Source of the DNA: Desulfoscipio geothermicus
GTDB taxonomy: Bacteria > Bacillota > Desulfotomaculia > Desulfotomaculales > Desulfallaceae
Assembly: GCA_016841205.1 (NCBI GenBank)
Contig: JAENZP010000019.1
Span: 1 to 47,509, forward strand
Direction: 5' to 3'
DNA length: 47,509 nt
Of this stretch, positions 6,094 through 39,970 are shown one piece after another (within the stretch, counting starts at the first letter, position 1; each line of letters starts with the position of its first letter). The notes under the pieces were generated by a model that saw only the letters and a program-made list of their open reading frames with translations, did not search any database and had not been told where the DNA came from. Position numbers and translations under genes: made by a program.

Positions 6094-7038
6094 TCAGTCA
6101 AAAAGTGTACTTACCGGCAGATTCTCATGTATGTGCATAATAGTCTCTCCCAAAAGCGGTGCTACTGACAGTATTTTTATTTTATCAATTCTTTTGCTTT
6201 CCGGTAGGGGGATAGTATTAGTAACAACTACCTCCCGTATGGGTGAACGCGCCAGCCGATCCACGGCAGGACCGCTGAGCACGGGGTGGGTGCAACAAGC
6301 ATAAACATCTTCCGCTCCCAATTCTTTAAGGGTTACCGCTCCCTGGGTAATAGTACCGGCCGTGTCTATGATATCATCAATCATAATTACATTCTTACCG
6401 CGAATATCACCAATGATATGCTTGATTTCAGCTGCATTTGGTTCAGCGCGTCGCCTATCGATAATGGCGAGAGGGGCGCCAATTATTTCCGCAAATTTCC
6501 GGGCTCGTTGTACACTACCCAAATCGGGGCTCACCACCACGACATTGTCCAGTTTCTGCTGAATAAAATACTGGGCCAAAAGCGGTACGCCCGGTAAATG
6601 ATCCGCCGGAATATCAAAAAATCCCTGAATCTGCCCGGCATGTAAATCCATAGTAACAACCCGTTTGGCACCGCTGGCGGTGATTAAATTAGCCACCAGT
6701 TTGGCGGTGATGGGATCACGTGCCCGAGCCTTACGATCCTGCCGGGCATATCCGTAATAGGGAGTTACCGCCGTAATTCTGCGGGCTGACGCCCGGTGCA
6801 CGGCATCCACCATGACAAGCAGCTCCATCAAATGCTGGTTCACCGGCTCGCTGGTGGGTTGAATGATAAAGACATCCGCTCCCCGCACACTTTCGTTTAT
6901 TTTTACCTGTATTTCCCCGTCACTAAAATGAGTAACCTTAGCAGATCCCAAGGAAACACCGAGGTAGTGGACAATCTCCTCTGCTAAAGCGGGATTGGCA
7001 TTTCCGGTAAATATTTTTAGCTGTTGTCGGGATGACAT
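6094..7038 (-). CDS. prs: Ribose-phosphate pyrophosphokinase (PRPP synthetase)
   Basis: The 314-residue protein is full length for class I PRPP synthetase, which makes PRPP from ribose 5-phosphate and ATP for purine, pyrimidine, His and Trp synthesis. Visible motifs: [40 protein letters not shown] (ATP loop), [19 protein letters not shown], and the PRPP loop [13 protein letters not shown]. The start is ATG 7038 with GGAGGT 9 bases upstream. Unlike many Firmicutes it is not directly preceded by glmU. The adenine deaminase gene is divergent just beyond, which suits a purine salvage context. Confidence 0.97.
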
Positions 7039-7120
7039 GTGCGCGTACCTCCAAATAATTATTCTTTAGTCTTACCCAGATGGCCTTTCTTTTTTGAGCG
7101 TGATGATTTATTATACAATT

Positions 7121-7279
7121 CTAACCAATTTCCAATTTTCCTTCTGTGAAAGTAAGTGAATAGCGATTTACAATTTTGTTTTGCTCTTTCGTGCAGGTAC
7201 GATGCTTTTTTTTCCCGTTGCGGTGGCAATTTGGTACGGGCGACCAGTTCATAGGATAGTCTTCAATATTGACAGGCAT
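7121..7279 (-). CDS. Small hypothetical protein (52 aa)
   Basis: The start is placed at ATG 7279 because GGAGGAGAC lies 6 bases ahead; an in-frame upstream ATG at 7315 has no such site. The product begins MPVNIEDYPMNW and is rich in Lys, Asn and Thr with two Cys (NCHRNGKKKHRTC), a spacing that could bind metal. I do not recognise a family. It lies upstream of prs on the same strand, 82 bases away. Confidence 0.5.
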   Translation of the reverse strand: MPVNIEDYPMNWSPVPNCHRNGKKKHRTCTKEQNKIVNRYSLTFTEGKLEIG

Positions 7280-7560
7280 TTTGTTGTCTCCTCCGTATAA
7301 TTGTTTTGCATGCAATTATACCATTGTGTGCAAACCACTACAATTGATATAATAAACAACAAAAAACGTGTTTATTTTTAGTTAAGCTTACCTCTATTTC
7401 GCTATACTCGTTAAGAAGCTTGGTAGGCGGTTTCCCGGTGGCACCCAGGTCGGTACTATGCTTGGGATGTAATTAATTATGGGTAATCACCATCTTTTTA
7501 AGGAAACTGACTCAACAAATATTCAAATAAATATTAAATTAAGAAATCAGGTGCTTGCTA

Positions 7561-36693: not shown

Positions 36694-37053
36694 TTGTTGA
36701 TAAATGAACCGGATGTTCTTGTGCAGTTGGCTGTTGAATCGGCGGAAGGGAAAAAAGCCCTGGATATCACTGTGCTAAATATAGGTGAAGTTTCCGTGGT
36801 GGCTGATTACTTTATTATTTGCAGCAGCAGGTCACAGGTGCATGCCCGGGCCATTGCCGATGCAATTGAAGAACACTTGCAGCAGCACGGAGCTGGTCAA
36901 CCACGCAGGGAAGGGTTCAAGACAGCGCAATGGTTATTGCTGGACTTCGGTTCCGTGGTGATACACATTTTTCAGGAAGAACAACGTCGTTTTTATAATT
37001 TGGAGCACTTGTGGGGGGACGCTCAGATTGTTAAAACCCCGGCAAATATGTAA
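36694..37053 (+). CDS. rsfS: Ribosomal silencing factor
   Basis: The 119-residue protein (118 if TTG 36697 is used) matches RsfS: KKALDITVLNIGEVSVVADY, FIICSSRSQVHARAIADAIE, REGFKTAQWLLLDFGSVVIH and FQEEQRRFYNLEHLW. It binds L14 and blocks subunit joining when nutrients are short. There is no ATG; TTG 36694 and TTG 36697 both follow AGGGGGA, and the second has the better spacing. Position behind yqeK is the usual one. Confidence 0.93.
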   Translation: MLINEPDVLVQLAVESAEGKKALDITVLNIGEVSVVADYFIICSSRSQVHARAIADAIEEHLQQHGAGQPRREGFKTAQWLLLDFGSVVIHIFQEEQRRFYNLEHLWGDAQIVKTPANM

Positions 37054-37104
37054 ATGTTTTTAACATTGACTTTAAATATTAATTAATTTATAATAATCTT
37101 CAGT

Positions 37105-37400
37105 TTAAGGGGAGTAGTAAAAATCTCTGTTTTACTCTGAAGGGAGCCGCCGGTTTCTGCGAGGCGGTGGTAAGGCGAGTGAACTCGCCCCGGAGTTGCC
37201 CGGTGGAATCCGGGACGGTATGTACCGTTAACACACCAAGTGGGTAAAGTCATGGGGGTGTAGCTCAGCTGGGAGAGCGCCTGAATGGCATTCAGGAGGT
37301 CAGGGGTTCGAGCCCCCTCATCTCCACCAAAAGGCTTTATCAATTAGGGTGGTATCGCGAGATAAACCTCTCGTCCCTTTGCGGGAAGAGAGGTTTTGTT
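37105..37400 (+). promoter_or_regulatory. T-box leader of leuS, interrupted by a tRNA gene
   Basis: Stem I is seen in AGTAGTAA (37113), AGGGAGCC...GAGGCGG (37141-37168) and GTGAACTCGCCCCGGAG, where CTC at 37184-37186 is the likely leucine specifier. A Stem II-like part follows, with CCGTTAAC. The T-box proper AGGGTGGTATCGCG stands at 37346-37359, and the competing terminator AACCTCTC / GAGAGGTT plus T run at 37365-37400. Between Stem II and the T-box lies a whole tRNA-Ala gene, framed by TAAAG (37245) and CTTTA (37335). Uncharged tRNA-Leu should allow leuS read-through. Confidence 0.85.
37254..37329 (+). tRNA. tRNA-Ala (anticodon GGC)
   Basis: The 76 bases fold as a canonical tRNA: acceptor GGGGGTG / CATCTCC with the G3-U70 pair that marks alanine, D arm GCTC / GAGC, anticodon stem CCTGA / TCAGG with loop ATGGCAT (anticodon GGC), a 5-base variable loop, T arm AGGGG / CCCCT with TTCGAGC, then A and an encoded CCA. 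It is on the same strand as leuS and sits within the leuS T-box leader. Confidence 0.95.
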
Positions 37401-37486
37401 TGTTTTCATAATCATCCAAAATGTGATAATATTGGAGTTAGGTATCAAAAAAACGCAAATTTGTTACAGCGTTACGGGAGGAAGCA

Positions 37487-39970
37487 ATGAAGGATCGCTA
37501 TGAATTTAAAGAAATAGAGGCCAAGTTGCAGCAAAAATGGGTACAACAGGATATCTATGTTGTGCCGGATTCCAGCGACCGGCAAAAATATTACTGCCTG
37601 GAGATGTTCCCCTATCCTTCGGGTAAATTGCACATGGGGCATGTGCGCAACTATTCCATTGGTGACGTGGTGGCCCGGTTTAAAACGATGCAGGGATATA
37701 ATGTTCTGCACCCCATGGGCTGGGACGCCTTTGGCCTGCCGGCGGAGAATGCTGCCATCAAGCATGGAGCAATGCATCCGGCTCAGTGGACTATGGATAA
37801 TATTGATACCATGCGGGCTCAGTTAAAACAATTGGGTCTTAGCTATGACTGGAACCGGGAGGTGGCTACTTGTCACCCCGGTTATTATAAATGGACTCAG
37901 TGGCTGTTTTTACAGCTTTATCACCATGGACTGGCCTACAAAAAGAAATCTGCCGTAAACTGGTGTCCCTCCTGCGCCACCGTACTGGCCAACGAGCAAG
38001 TCAAGGAAGGTTCTTGCGAGCGCTGCGACAGCGTGGTGGAAAAAAGGGAATTGGAACAGTGGTTTTTAAAAATCACTGACTACGCCGACCGGTTGCTGGC
38101 TGACCTTAAAAAGTTGGGCGGCTGGCCGGACAAAGTCAAAATTATGCAGGAGAATTGGATCGGGCGCAGTGAAGGCGCCGAGATTACTTTCCCCATTATC
38201 GATGGTGGAACCATCACTGTATTTACTACCCGACCGGATACCGTTTACGGCGTTACCTATATGGTGTTGGCACCCGAGCATCCCCTGGTGGAAAAATTAA
38301 TTGAGGGTAAGCCTCAGGCCGGTAAAATCAGGAAATTTGTGCAAGAGGTACGTAATTTGAGTGAACTGGCCCGTACCTCCACTGAGACGGAAAAAGTCGG
38401 GTTATTTACCGGCGCTTATTGCATTAACCCGGTAAACGATGAAATAGTGCCTATTTTAGTGGCCAATTATGTGCTGGTGGAATACGGTACCGGTGCTGTT
38501 ATGGCGGTACCGGCCCACGATCAGCGGGATTTTGAATTTGCCCGTAAGTACAGCCTGCCCATCCGGGTGGTCATTCAGCCCGAGGGTGTTACCCTGGATC
38601 CCGACGCCATGACCGAGGCCTACGAGGCCGAAGGGTTGATGGTTAATTCAGGACCGTTCAGTGGTATGTCGAACCGGCGGGGCATTACCGCCGTGATAAA
38701 ATATTTGCAGGAACGGGGGTTGGGAGAAGGGCGGGTCAACTATCGCTTGCGGGACTGGCTTATTTCCCGGCAGCGTTACTGGGGCGCGCCTATTCCCATT
38801 GTTTATTGCGATAAGTGCGGCGTAGTGCCGGTGCCTGATGAGGATTTGCCTGTTATGCTGCCCATGGATGTGGCCTTTAAACCTACCGGTCGTTCCCCGC
38901 TTGAGGATCATGCGGACTTTGTTAATACCATTTGTCCCACGTGTGGAGGCCCTGCCCGCCGGGAAACCGACACAATGGATACCTTTATGTGTTCTTCCTT
39001 TTATTACTACCGTTATACCAGTCCCCGGAATGAAGACAATGCTTGGGATCTTGACAAGGTAAGGCAATGGCTGCCGGTGGATCAATATATCGGCGGTGTG
39101 GAACACGCTATTTTACATCTGCTGTACAGCCGGTTTATCACTAAAGTACTTTGTGACCTGAAACTGGTTGATAATGATGAGCCTTTTACCAACCTGCTTA
39201 CCCAGGGCATGGTGCTTAAAGACGGGGCTAAGATGAGCAAGTCCAAGGGTAACGTGGTAAGCCCGGAGGATATTGTGGCCAAATATGGTGCTGACACTGC
39301 CCGGCTGTTTATTTTATTTGCTTCACCCCCTGAACGTGATCTGGAATGGAGCGACCAGGGAGTGGAAGGCTGTTACCGTTTTCTAAACCGTGTGTGGCGC
39401 TTGGTGGCACCCCTGGGCAACATACTGGCGGTAGGTGGGACCCCTGACCGGACCACGAATTTGGTAGGGGTCAACAAAGATATGCGCCGGATGACCCACT
39501 TGGCTATCAAAAAGGTTACTGAGGACGTGGGCAACCGGTTTAATTTTAATACAGCGGTGAGCGCCATTATGGAACTGGTTAACGCCATGTATCAGTACCG
39601 GGAAGTGCCCGAGTGCGACCGGAATGCCGGAGTTTTACGCGAGGCGGTGGAGGTTCTGCTGCTGCTCTTGGCTCCCTTCGCCCCGCATATCACTGAGGAA
39701 TTATGGGCATTAACCGGACACGAGGGCAGTATTCATGCCCGGTCGTGGCCTGAATATGATCCTGAGGCTACTATTGAAGATGAAATCACCATCGTTGTGC
39801 AGATTAACGGCAGGGTGCGCGACCGCATTCTGGTACCCGCTGATATTAAGCCCGATGTTATGCGGGAACTGGTTATGCAGCAGGAAAAAGTACAGGAATT
39901 GATCGGTGATCAAAAGGTGATTAAAGTAATACCGGTGCCTGGGAAATTGGTTAATATTGTGGTTAAATAA
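37487..39970 (+). CDS. leuS: Leucyl-tRNA synthetase
   Basis: The 827-residue class I synthetase has HMGH at 49-52 (HIGH signature), KMSKS at about 582-586, a Cys4-type zinc segment CPSCATVL...CERCD near 160, the editing domain ([20 protein letters not shown]), and a second CDKCG pair. Length is usual for Firmicutes. The message is preceded by the T-box leader. GGGAGGAAG lies ahead of ATG 37487. It follows yqeK and rsfS and is likely read from its own leader promoter as well. Confidence 0.98.

Follow-up and report, generated by a model that had tools for sequence, protein, structure and literature searches.

How a complete tRNA gene can lie inside a riboswitch that itself senses a tRNA, and whether the two elements work together, is the question raised by the leader of leuS in Desulfoscipio geothermicus (assembly GCA_016841205.1, contig JAENZP010000019.1). 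The window, that is the whole stretch of DNA analyzed, comprises 47,509 nucleotides. A sequence-only reading had placed an intact tRNA-Ala(GGC) gene with CCA in Stem III of a leuS T-box carrying a CTC (Leu) specifier and an antiterminator/terminator pair. Both elements were recovered here, the T-box as a complete RF00230 match of 95.7 bits in an Rfam search and the tRNA by ARAGORN (37254-37329) and Rfam (62.4 bits); the full model match and the canonical tRNA fold agree with the earlier view that neither has decayed.

Anatomy of the leader

The gene order in the window, from Pfam and open reading frames, is an HD-domain gene, which we take to be yqeK-like, then rsfS, the leader, leuS and hisG. 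The features of the locus are the following.

36694..37053, + strand: rsfS, the gene upstream of the leader (Pfam PF02410)
37066..37094, + strand: candidate sigma-A type promoter-like site of the leader, TTGACT-17-TATAAT (11/12 consensus positions)
37094..37381, + strand: T-box riboswitch RF00230, complete model 1-219 (Rfam, 95.7 bits, E 7.3e-20)
37100..37197, + strand: Stem I, limits approximate (Rfam alignment)
37184..37186, + strand: specifier CTC (Leu), after TGAA (Rfam alignment)
37198..37231, + strand: Stem II and Stem IIA/B region, limits approximate (Rfam alignment)
37238..37242, + strand: AAGUG, which fits the RRRxG purine string preceding Stem III (sequence; motif as in PMC7583486)
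37243..37251, + strand: Stem III 5' strand, GGTAAAGTC (sequence)
37254..37329, + strand: tRNA-Ala(GGC) gene with encoded CCA, inside Stem III (ARAGORN)
37333..37341, + strand: Stem III 3' strand, GGCTTTATC (sequence)
37346..37378, + strand: antiterminator (Rfam alignment and sequence)
37350-37353, + strand: start of the T-box bulge, TGGT (Rfam alignment and sequence)
37364..37407, + strand: competing terminator hairpin and T-rich tail (read from sequence)
37364-37377 and 37383-37396, + strand: terminator arms (read from sequence)
37403-37430, + strand: weaker promoter-like site between terminator and leuS, TTTTCA-16-GATAAT with TG (sequence scan)
37487..39970, + strand: leuS, the predicted target gene of the leader (Pfam)

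The T-box score lies above the RF00230 gathering cut-off of 93 bits, and the alignment places 82 inserted positions in the Stem III loop. The CTC specifier would pair with tRNA-Leu(GAG), for which the genome has one gene, tRNA-Leu(gag), and its amino acid matches leuS downstream. PMC7583486 describes a purine string 5' and an AA 3' of Stem III in ordinary T-boxes, and Stem III of the window is preceded and followed in the same way. The frame TAAAG/CTTTA that had been proposed around the tRNA is real but longer than claimed: GGTAAAGTC can form 9 possible pairs with GGCTTTATC, leaving 2 unpaired bases 5' and 3 unpaired bases 3' of the tRNA. The strands of antiterminator and terminator are complete and mutually exclusive. 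An unconstrained MFE fold of the leader includes a hairpin at the terminator position, while a simple terminator scan of the leader gave no call there; a full tRNA cloverleaf together with Stem III is absent from that unconstrained fold.

A promoter scan of 701 bases returned 3 sites, as against 1.2 expected from shuffles. It found no second promoter-like site 5' of the tRNA on the + strand in the leader region of the window, and a promoter of its own for the nested tRNA was rejected. By eye the site at 37403-37430 can be seen in four of the seven genus members, counting the window, and is not visible in the other 3; from its sequence it is a possible T-box-independent basal promoter of leuS. 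On the - strand an ORF of 86 aa (37083-37343) runs antisense to leader and tRNA; ORFs opposite tRNAs are often misannotated as protein, and this one is of such a kind.

The nested tRNA

The fold, the GGC anticodon and the encoded CCA are all present (ARAGORN; Rfam RF00005 match 37254-37326), as is the pair G3:U70, the identity pair of AlaRS. Rfam finds 55 tRNAs in the genome: the nested copy, 52 others that could be named and two that were left unnamed. Among the 52 other named tRNAs there is no Ala(GGC), while Ala-CGC and Ala-TGC are present; of the 115 Ala codons in three genes of the window, 83 are GCC or GCT. A GGC anticodon-arm pattern matches the nested copy and nothing else in 40 of the 43 genomes of the order that show nesting (see below); the pattern is not exhaustive and misses GGC tRNAs found by ARAGORN in G031, G050 and G058; the exceptions are G015 and G022 with two copies and G018 with none, its nested tRNA being deviant. 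The tRNA looks functional by sequence, and from its sole-copy status and the U at position -1 we infer that it is processed and used in translation.

Occurrence in other genomes

The leader was used as a DNA query against 60 genomes, its own included, and the best 30 loci were inspected: 24 (L022-L045) carry a tRNA-Ala(GGC) whose flanks look like a T-box by eye, and the rest (L046-L051) are ordinary tRNA-Ala genes. A search pattern was then defined as the 3' half of any tRNA, its type unspecified, with a T-box antiterminator 5-35 bases downstream; it is blind to tRNAs without an encoded CCA or more than 35 bases from the antiterminator. It gives matches in 43 of the order's 113 genomes, with that of the window counted, and the reversed control gives none. 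Genomes G019, G052, G066 and G067 are nested too, one base off the pattern; in each the tRNA lies within an Rfam T-box call of 120-127 bits. In a sample of 398 genomes from the phylum, a slightly looser pattern matches 79, one of which (G311) is not tRNA-Ala-like by eye.

Among named genomes at least 119 stretches match the pattern, and ARAGORN identifies a tRNA in 108 of them, each time tRNA-Ala(GGC); no other tRNA type nested in a T-box occurs among these 108 calls at the matches listed. The 11 of 119 listed stretches without a tRNA call were dropped; 8 look like chance matches by eye, and in L065 and L149 the sequence begins inside the tRNA. In a Symbiobacterium bin (L099, 205-279) just the 3' half of the tRNA precedes the antiterminator, and there is no Rfam T-box; by its sequence this would be either decay or an assembly error. 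The submitter labels of the 108 are Bacillota (73), Chloroflexota (12), Thermomicrobiota (6), Atribacterota (4), Armatimonadota (3), Coprothermobacterota (2), Actinomycetota (2), Caldisericota (1), Pseudomonadota (1), Thermodesulfobacteriota (1) and none (3); many of these are metagenome bins, and odd labels may reflect misbinning. For example, L147 is labelled Desulfovibrio, yet a quick LeuS tree places its LeuS within Bacillota. Spread beyond the phylum of the window rests on these matches listed from named genomes.

Rfam was run on 21 of the 108 loci and the T-box spans the tRNA in 18. Only 4 of 17 named nested loci pass the gathering threshold; by E-value, all 10 loci picked from the failures show a T-box with scores of 40 to 92 against the cut-off of 93, which may explain why such T-boxes have been overlooked. 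One of these 10 is an unlabelled bin, and the others represent seven phylum labels. In a further set judged by E-value, 4 of 7 have a T-box spanning the tRNA, the matches at L072 and L085 being weak; no Rfam T-box was found around the tRNA of L152 and L170, and L079 has a weak partial match beside its tRNA. L152, an Atribacterota bin, has a tRNA-Ala (2713-2788) before an antiterminator with no T-box called around it; elsewhere on the locus (6581-7451) a run of tRNA matches is followed by a separate T-box. In the named isolates Syntrophomonas palmitatica and Tengunoibacter tsumagoiensis the Rfam T-box spans the tRNA. Nesting of a tRNA in a T-box is widespread and not a local oddity.

Sequence conservation

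Conservation was scored over 130 loci, composed of the 108 matches listed and 29 loci of relatives (window included) minus 7 exact duplicates; the upstream sequence is cut short in L142 and L168, the latter possibly from a genome already represented, and L152 and L170 were kept despite having no recognisable T-box around the tRNA. All seven acceptor pairs are present in 130/130 loci, spread over 77 distinct tRNA sequences, as is G3:U70. The tRNA ends in ACCA in 130/130 loci and the T-box bulge TGGT is found in 128/130; the search pattern itself contained the CCA, the core of the antiterminator and a portion of the T arm, so these do not count as independent support. A U occupies position -1 in 107/130 loci, compared with 22% T in bases further upstream; the 52 other tRNAs of the window genome have it in 34 cases and resemble the nested tRNAs over bases -3 to -1.

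On the T-box side, AA precedes the antiterminator in 129/130 loci (58 expected from shuffles) and its partner CGYCCC is present in 127/130, followed by a T4 run in 116 of these 127 and by none in the other 11 where it was looked for. Of the 126 loci whose sequence reaches far enough upstream, 108 have the strict specifier context GAA-(N)-CTC-R-B-C, as against 0.85 in shuffles, and a triplet-blind context matched 93/126, with CTC among the readings in 93/93. A looser CTC regex hits 127/130 loci but also about 38 of 126 shuffled sequences, hence our preference for the strict counts. The flanks of a tRNA pair with each other at a mean of -8.8 kcal/mol compared with -5.5 kcal/mol for swapped flanks (sd of swap means 0.2), and own pairing beats the mean swap in 104/130 loci. 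To judge from these sequences, tRNA and T-box both look selected.

Genes downstream

By motif, leuS lies downstream in 86 of the 108 matches listed, and by eye the downstream gene looks like leuS in three more (L069, L072, L115) and like a branched-chain aminotransferase in L077, L093 and L130. In ten of the 108 the first downstream gene is AMP-binding synthetase-like by eye; five loci are truncated, and L117 is ambiguous. Since leuS follows the synthetase-like gene in G007 and G009, roughly 2 kb past the leader, leucine is the common theme where examined.

T-box and tRNA apart

The region of leuS was examined in 30 genomes of the order, mostly chosen for absence of the strict pattern. Ten have a T-box without a called tRNA (G011, G013, G025, G026, G027, G038, G039, G046, G048 and G077), which in G013, G025, G026, G038 and G048 is separated from leuS downstream by roughly 1.8 to 2.5 kb. 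Fourteen have a tRNA-Ala(GGC) upstream of leuS without an antiterminator motif, and Rfam by E-value found no T-box at the 11 of these tRNA-only loci on which it was run. Both modules were found in two genomes and neither in three (G028, G036 and G054, the last a partial gene); G024 was unscored. Relatives with only one module are natural controls. The tRNA-less T-boxes near leuS in the order score 103 to 149 bits, as against 95.7 for the window, and by eye Stem III also pairs in those of G027, G039 and G077.

G011 and G013 hold a fossil tRNA, its acceptor stem still pairing and its anticodon and T arms shrunken, within T-boxes that score 105.8 and 105.9 bits; a DNA search of both genomes found Ala-TGC or Ala-CGC genes and no Ala(GGC). 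The T-box therefore persists after decay of the tRNA, and does not need a working one. The leuS T-box of G046 (L266, 119.7 bits) has a long Stem III insert with no ARAGORN tRNA, possibly a decayed tRNA to judge from its sequence. In G077 a tRNA-Ala(GGC) lies between RNase P RNA and a cobalamin riboswitch (425-773, 880-955 and 1072-1263 of L199). L189, L191 and L194 have a tRNA-Ala(GGC), with no T-box called, flanked by sequence like rsfS on one side and like leuS on the other; by eye a promoter-like box directly precedes the tRNA and a T-box-terminator-like hairpin directly follows it. These are possible T-box remnants. Elsewhere in the window genome (G000), T-box matches overlap or adjoin at C36:307442-307825, C35:5869-6256 and C9:14986-17516, and possibly represent tandem T-boxes.

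In a quick LeuS tree nested loci cluster largely by phylum label. On a tree of 98 LeuS, nested versus not nested takes 4 changes (23 in shuffles) and all four states take 8 (25 in shuffles); non-nested rows come only from the order of the window, and a single origin and a direction are not proven thereby.

Explanations for the nesting

The anatomy, the recurrence, the sole-copy status of the tRNA here and the separate occurrence of the modules were observed directly. The account that we consider probable is that one promoter always produces a leader with tRNA-Ala, that the T-box decides on leuS only, and that processing comes afterwards. The promoter would transcribe a leader that is both a leucine T-box and a precursor of tRNA-Ala(GGC); Stem I would bind tRNA-Leu(GAG) through the CTC specifier, and Stem III would tolerate the tRNA-Ala as an apical extension. 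Uncharged tRNA-Leu would stabilise the antiterminator so that leuS is transcribed, charged tRNA-Leu would lead to termination, and RNase P and 3' processing would excise the tRNA-Ala after the decision, from the terminated or the extended product. Antiterminator and terminator lie about 15 to 80 bases downstream of the tRNA; the decision is therefore expected within seconds and excision later. Because transcription reaches the tRNA before the terminator, terminated and read-through transcripts would both carry it, and the earlier proposal that tRNA-Ala supply is tied to leuS read-through is at odds with this arrangement. Steady tRNA-Ala expression is expected, since a T-box leader should be transcribed even with ample leucine. 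The suggestion that processing splits the leader is likely as chemistry, given the ordinary RNase P leader signature, yet pairing in Stem III could keep the halves joined. According to PMC9433436, leader bases that pair with RCCA inhibit RNase P; short linkers beneath a flanking helix could slow it, which counts against the account. So do the absence of the cloverleaf from the unconstrained fold, the three Rfam-tested loci with no T-box spanning the tRNA and the 11 loci lacking a T4 run. A single old insertion, frozen by the need for both genes, would also account for the conservation with no advantage involved.

Functional coupling would make the nested tRNA a working part of the switch, through its folding, its cleavage by RNase P or its presence; this strikes us as rather unlikely, and we say the same of its variants (time gained for tRNA-Leu docking, a two-piece T-box splinted by Stem III, or processing status setting leuS read-through). 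Nesting under several phylum labels among the matches listed speaks for it, as does the better pairing of tRNA flanks with each other than with those of other loci. Stem III pairing is also seen in tRNA-less T-boxes, however, and may serve the T-box alone; the T-box outlives the death of the tRNA in G011 and G013; and the need for both genes could by itself give the association. A quite doubtful extension makes Stem III a splint, with the tRNA-Ala lifted out by RNase P and 3' processing while sensor and decision hairpin stay joined; just as doubtful is its corollary that leucine sensing and tRNA-Ala maturation would be interdependent, in an old composite RNA present in several phyla.

Were RNase P to cut the nascent leader before the decision, the T-box would be idle and leuS would be transcribed from a promoter downstream of the terminator. 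The promoter-like site at 37403-37430, seen in four of seven genus members, and the ordinary RNase P signature at -1 fit this order of events, but the site is not visible in the other three, and an idle switch would not be expected to keep specifier context, TGGT, AA and antiterminator partner in most loci; we hold it to be improbable. That the tRNA was inserted by chance in one leader, or is the assembly insertion the sequence-only reading had allowed for, is close to inconceivable: no point in its support was found, and we reject it on the recurrence of nesting across genomes (43/113 in the order, 79/398 in the phylum, control 0), including the two named isolates.

If the favored account of a constant tRNA-Ala and a T-box acting on leuS is true, many bacteria make the tRNA for common Ala codons, often from the sole gene found, inside a leucine riboswitch, and the leader is therefore not expendable. 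The nested leader also offers a direct test of the order of tRNA processing and co-transcriptional riboswitch decision.

Comparison with known systems

Curious insertions are known in every domain of T-boxes, including Stem III of translational T-boxes (PMC7583486). These insertions of unknown role are similar to the present case, and the term 'tRNA gene' is absent from the main text of that paper. Among the open-access papers searched, none describes a tRNA gene inside a T-box by its title or the start of its abstract, though subscription papers may contain such a case; the earlier statement that no case was known agrees with this result, yet the arrangement is widespread in genomes.

Dicistronic operons of tRNA and mRNA include metY-nusA and tufB of E. 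coli. The leuS leader resembles them in having a tRNA before a protein gene on one predicted transcript that processing would part, and in the window one strong promoter-like site precedes the leader and a weaker one follows the terminator. In those operons the tRNA is not known to lie in a riboswitch, whereas here it stands between sensing stem and decision hairpin. The closest class is the leuS T-box of RF00230, with which the leader shares Stem I, CTC, Stem II and IIA/B, the succession RRRxG-Stem III-AA, the TGGT bulge, antiterminator and terminator, and the position upstream of leuS. It differs from that class in a Stem III that bears a whole tRNA-Ala gene; we file the leader as a T-box, with the tRNA nested in Stem III as its new feature.
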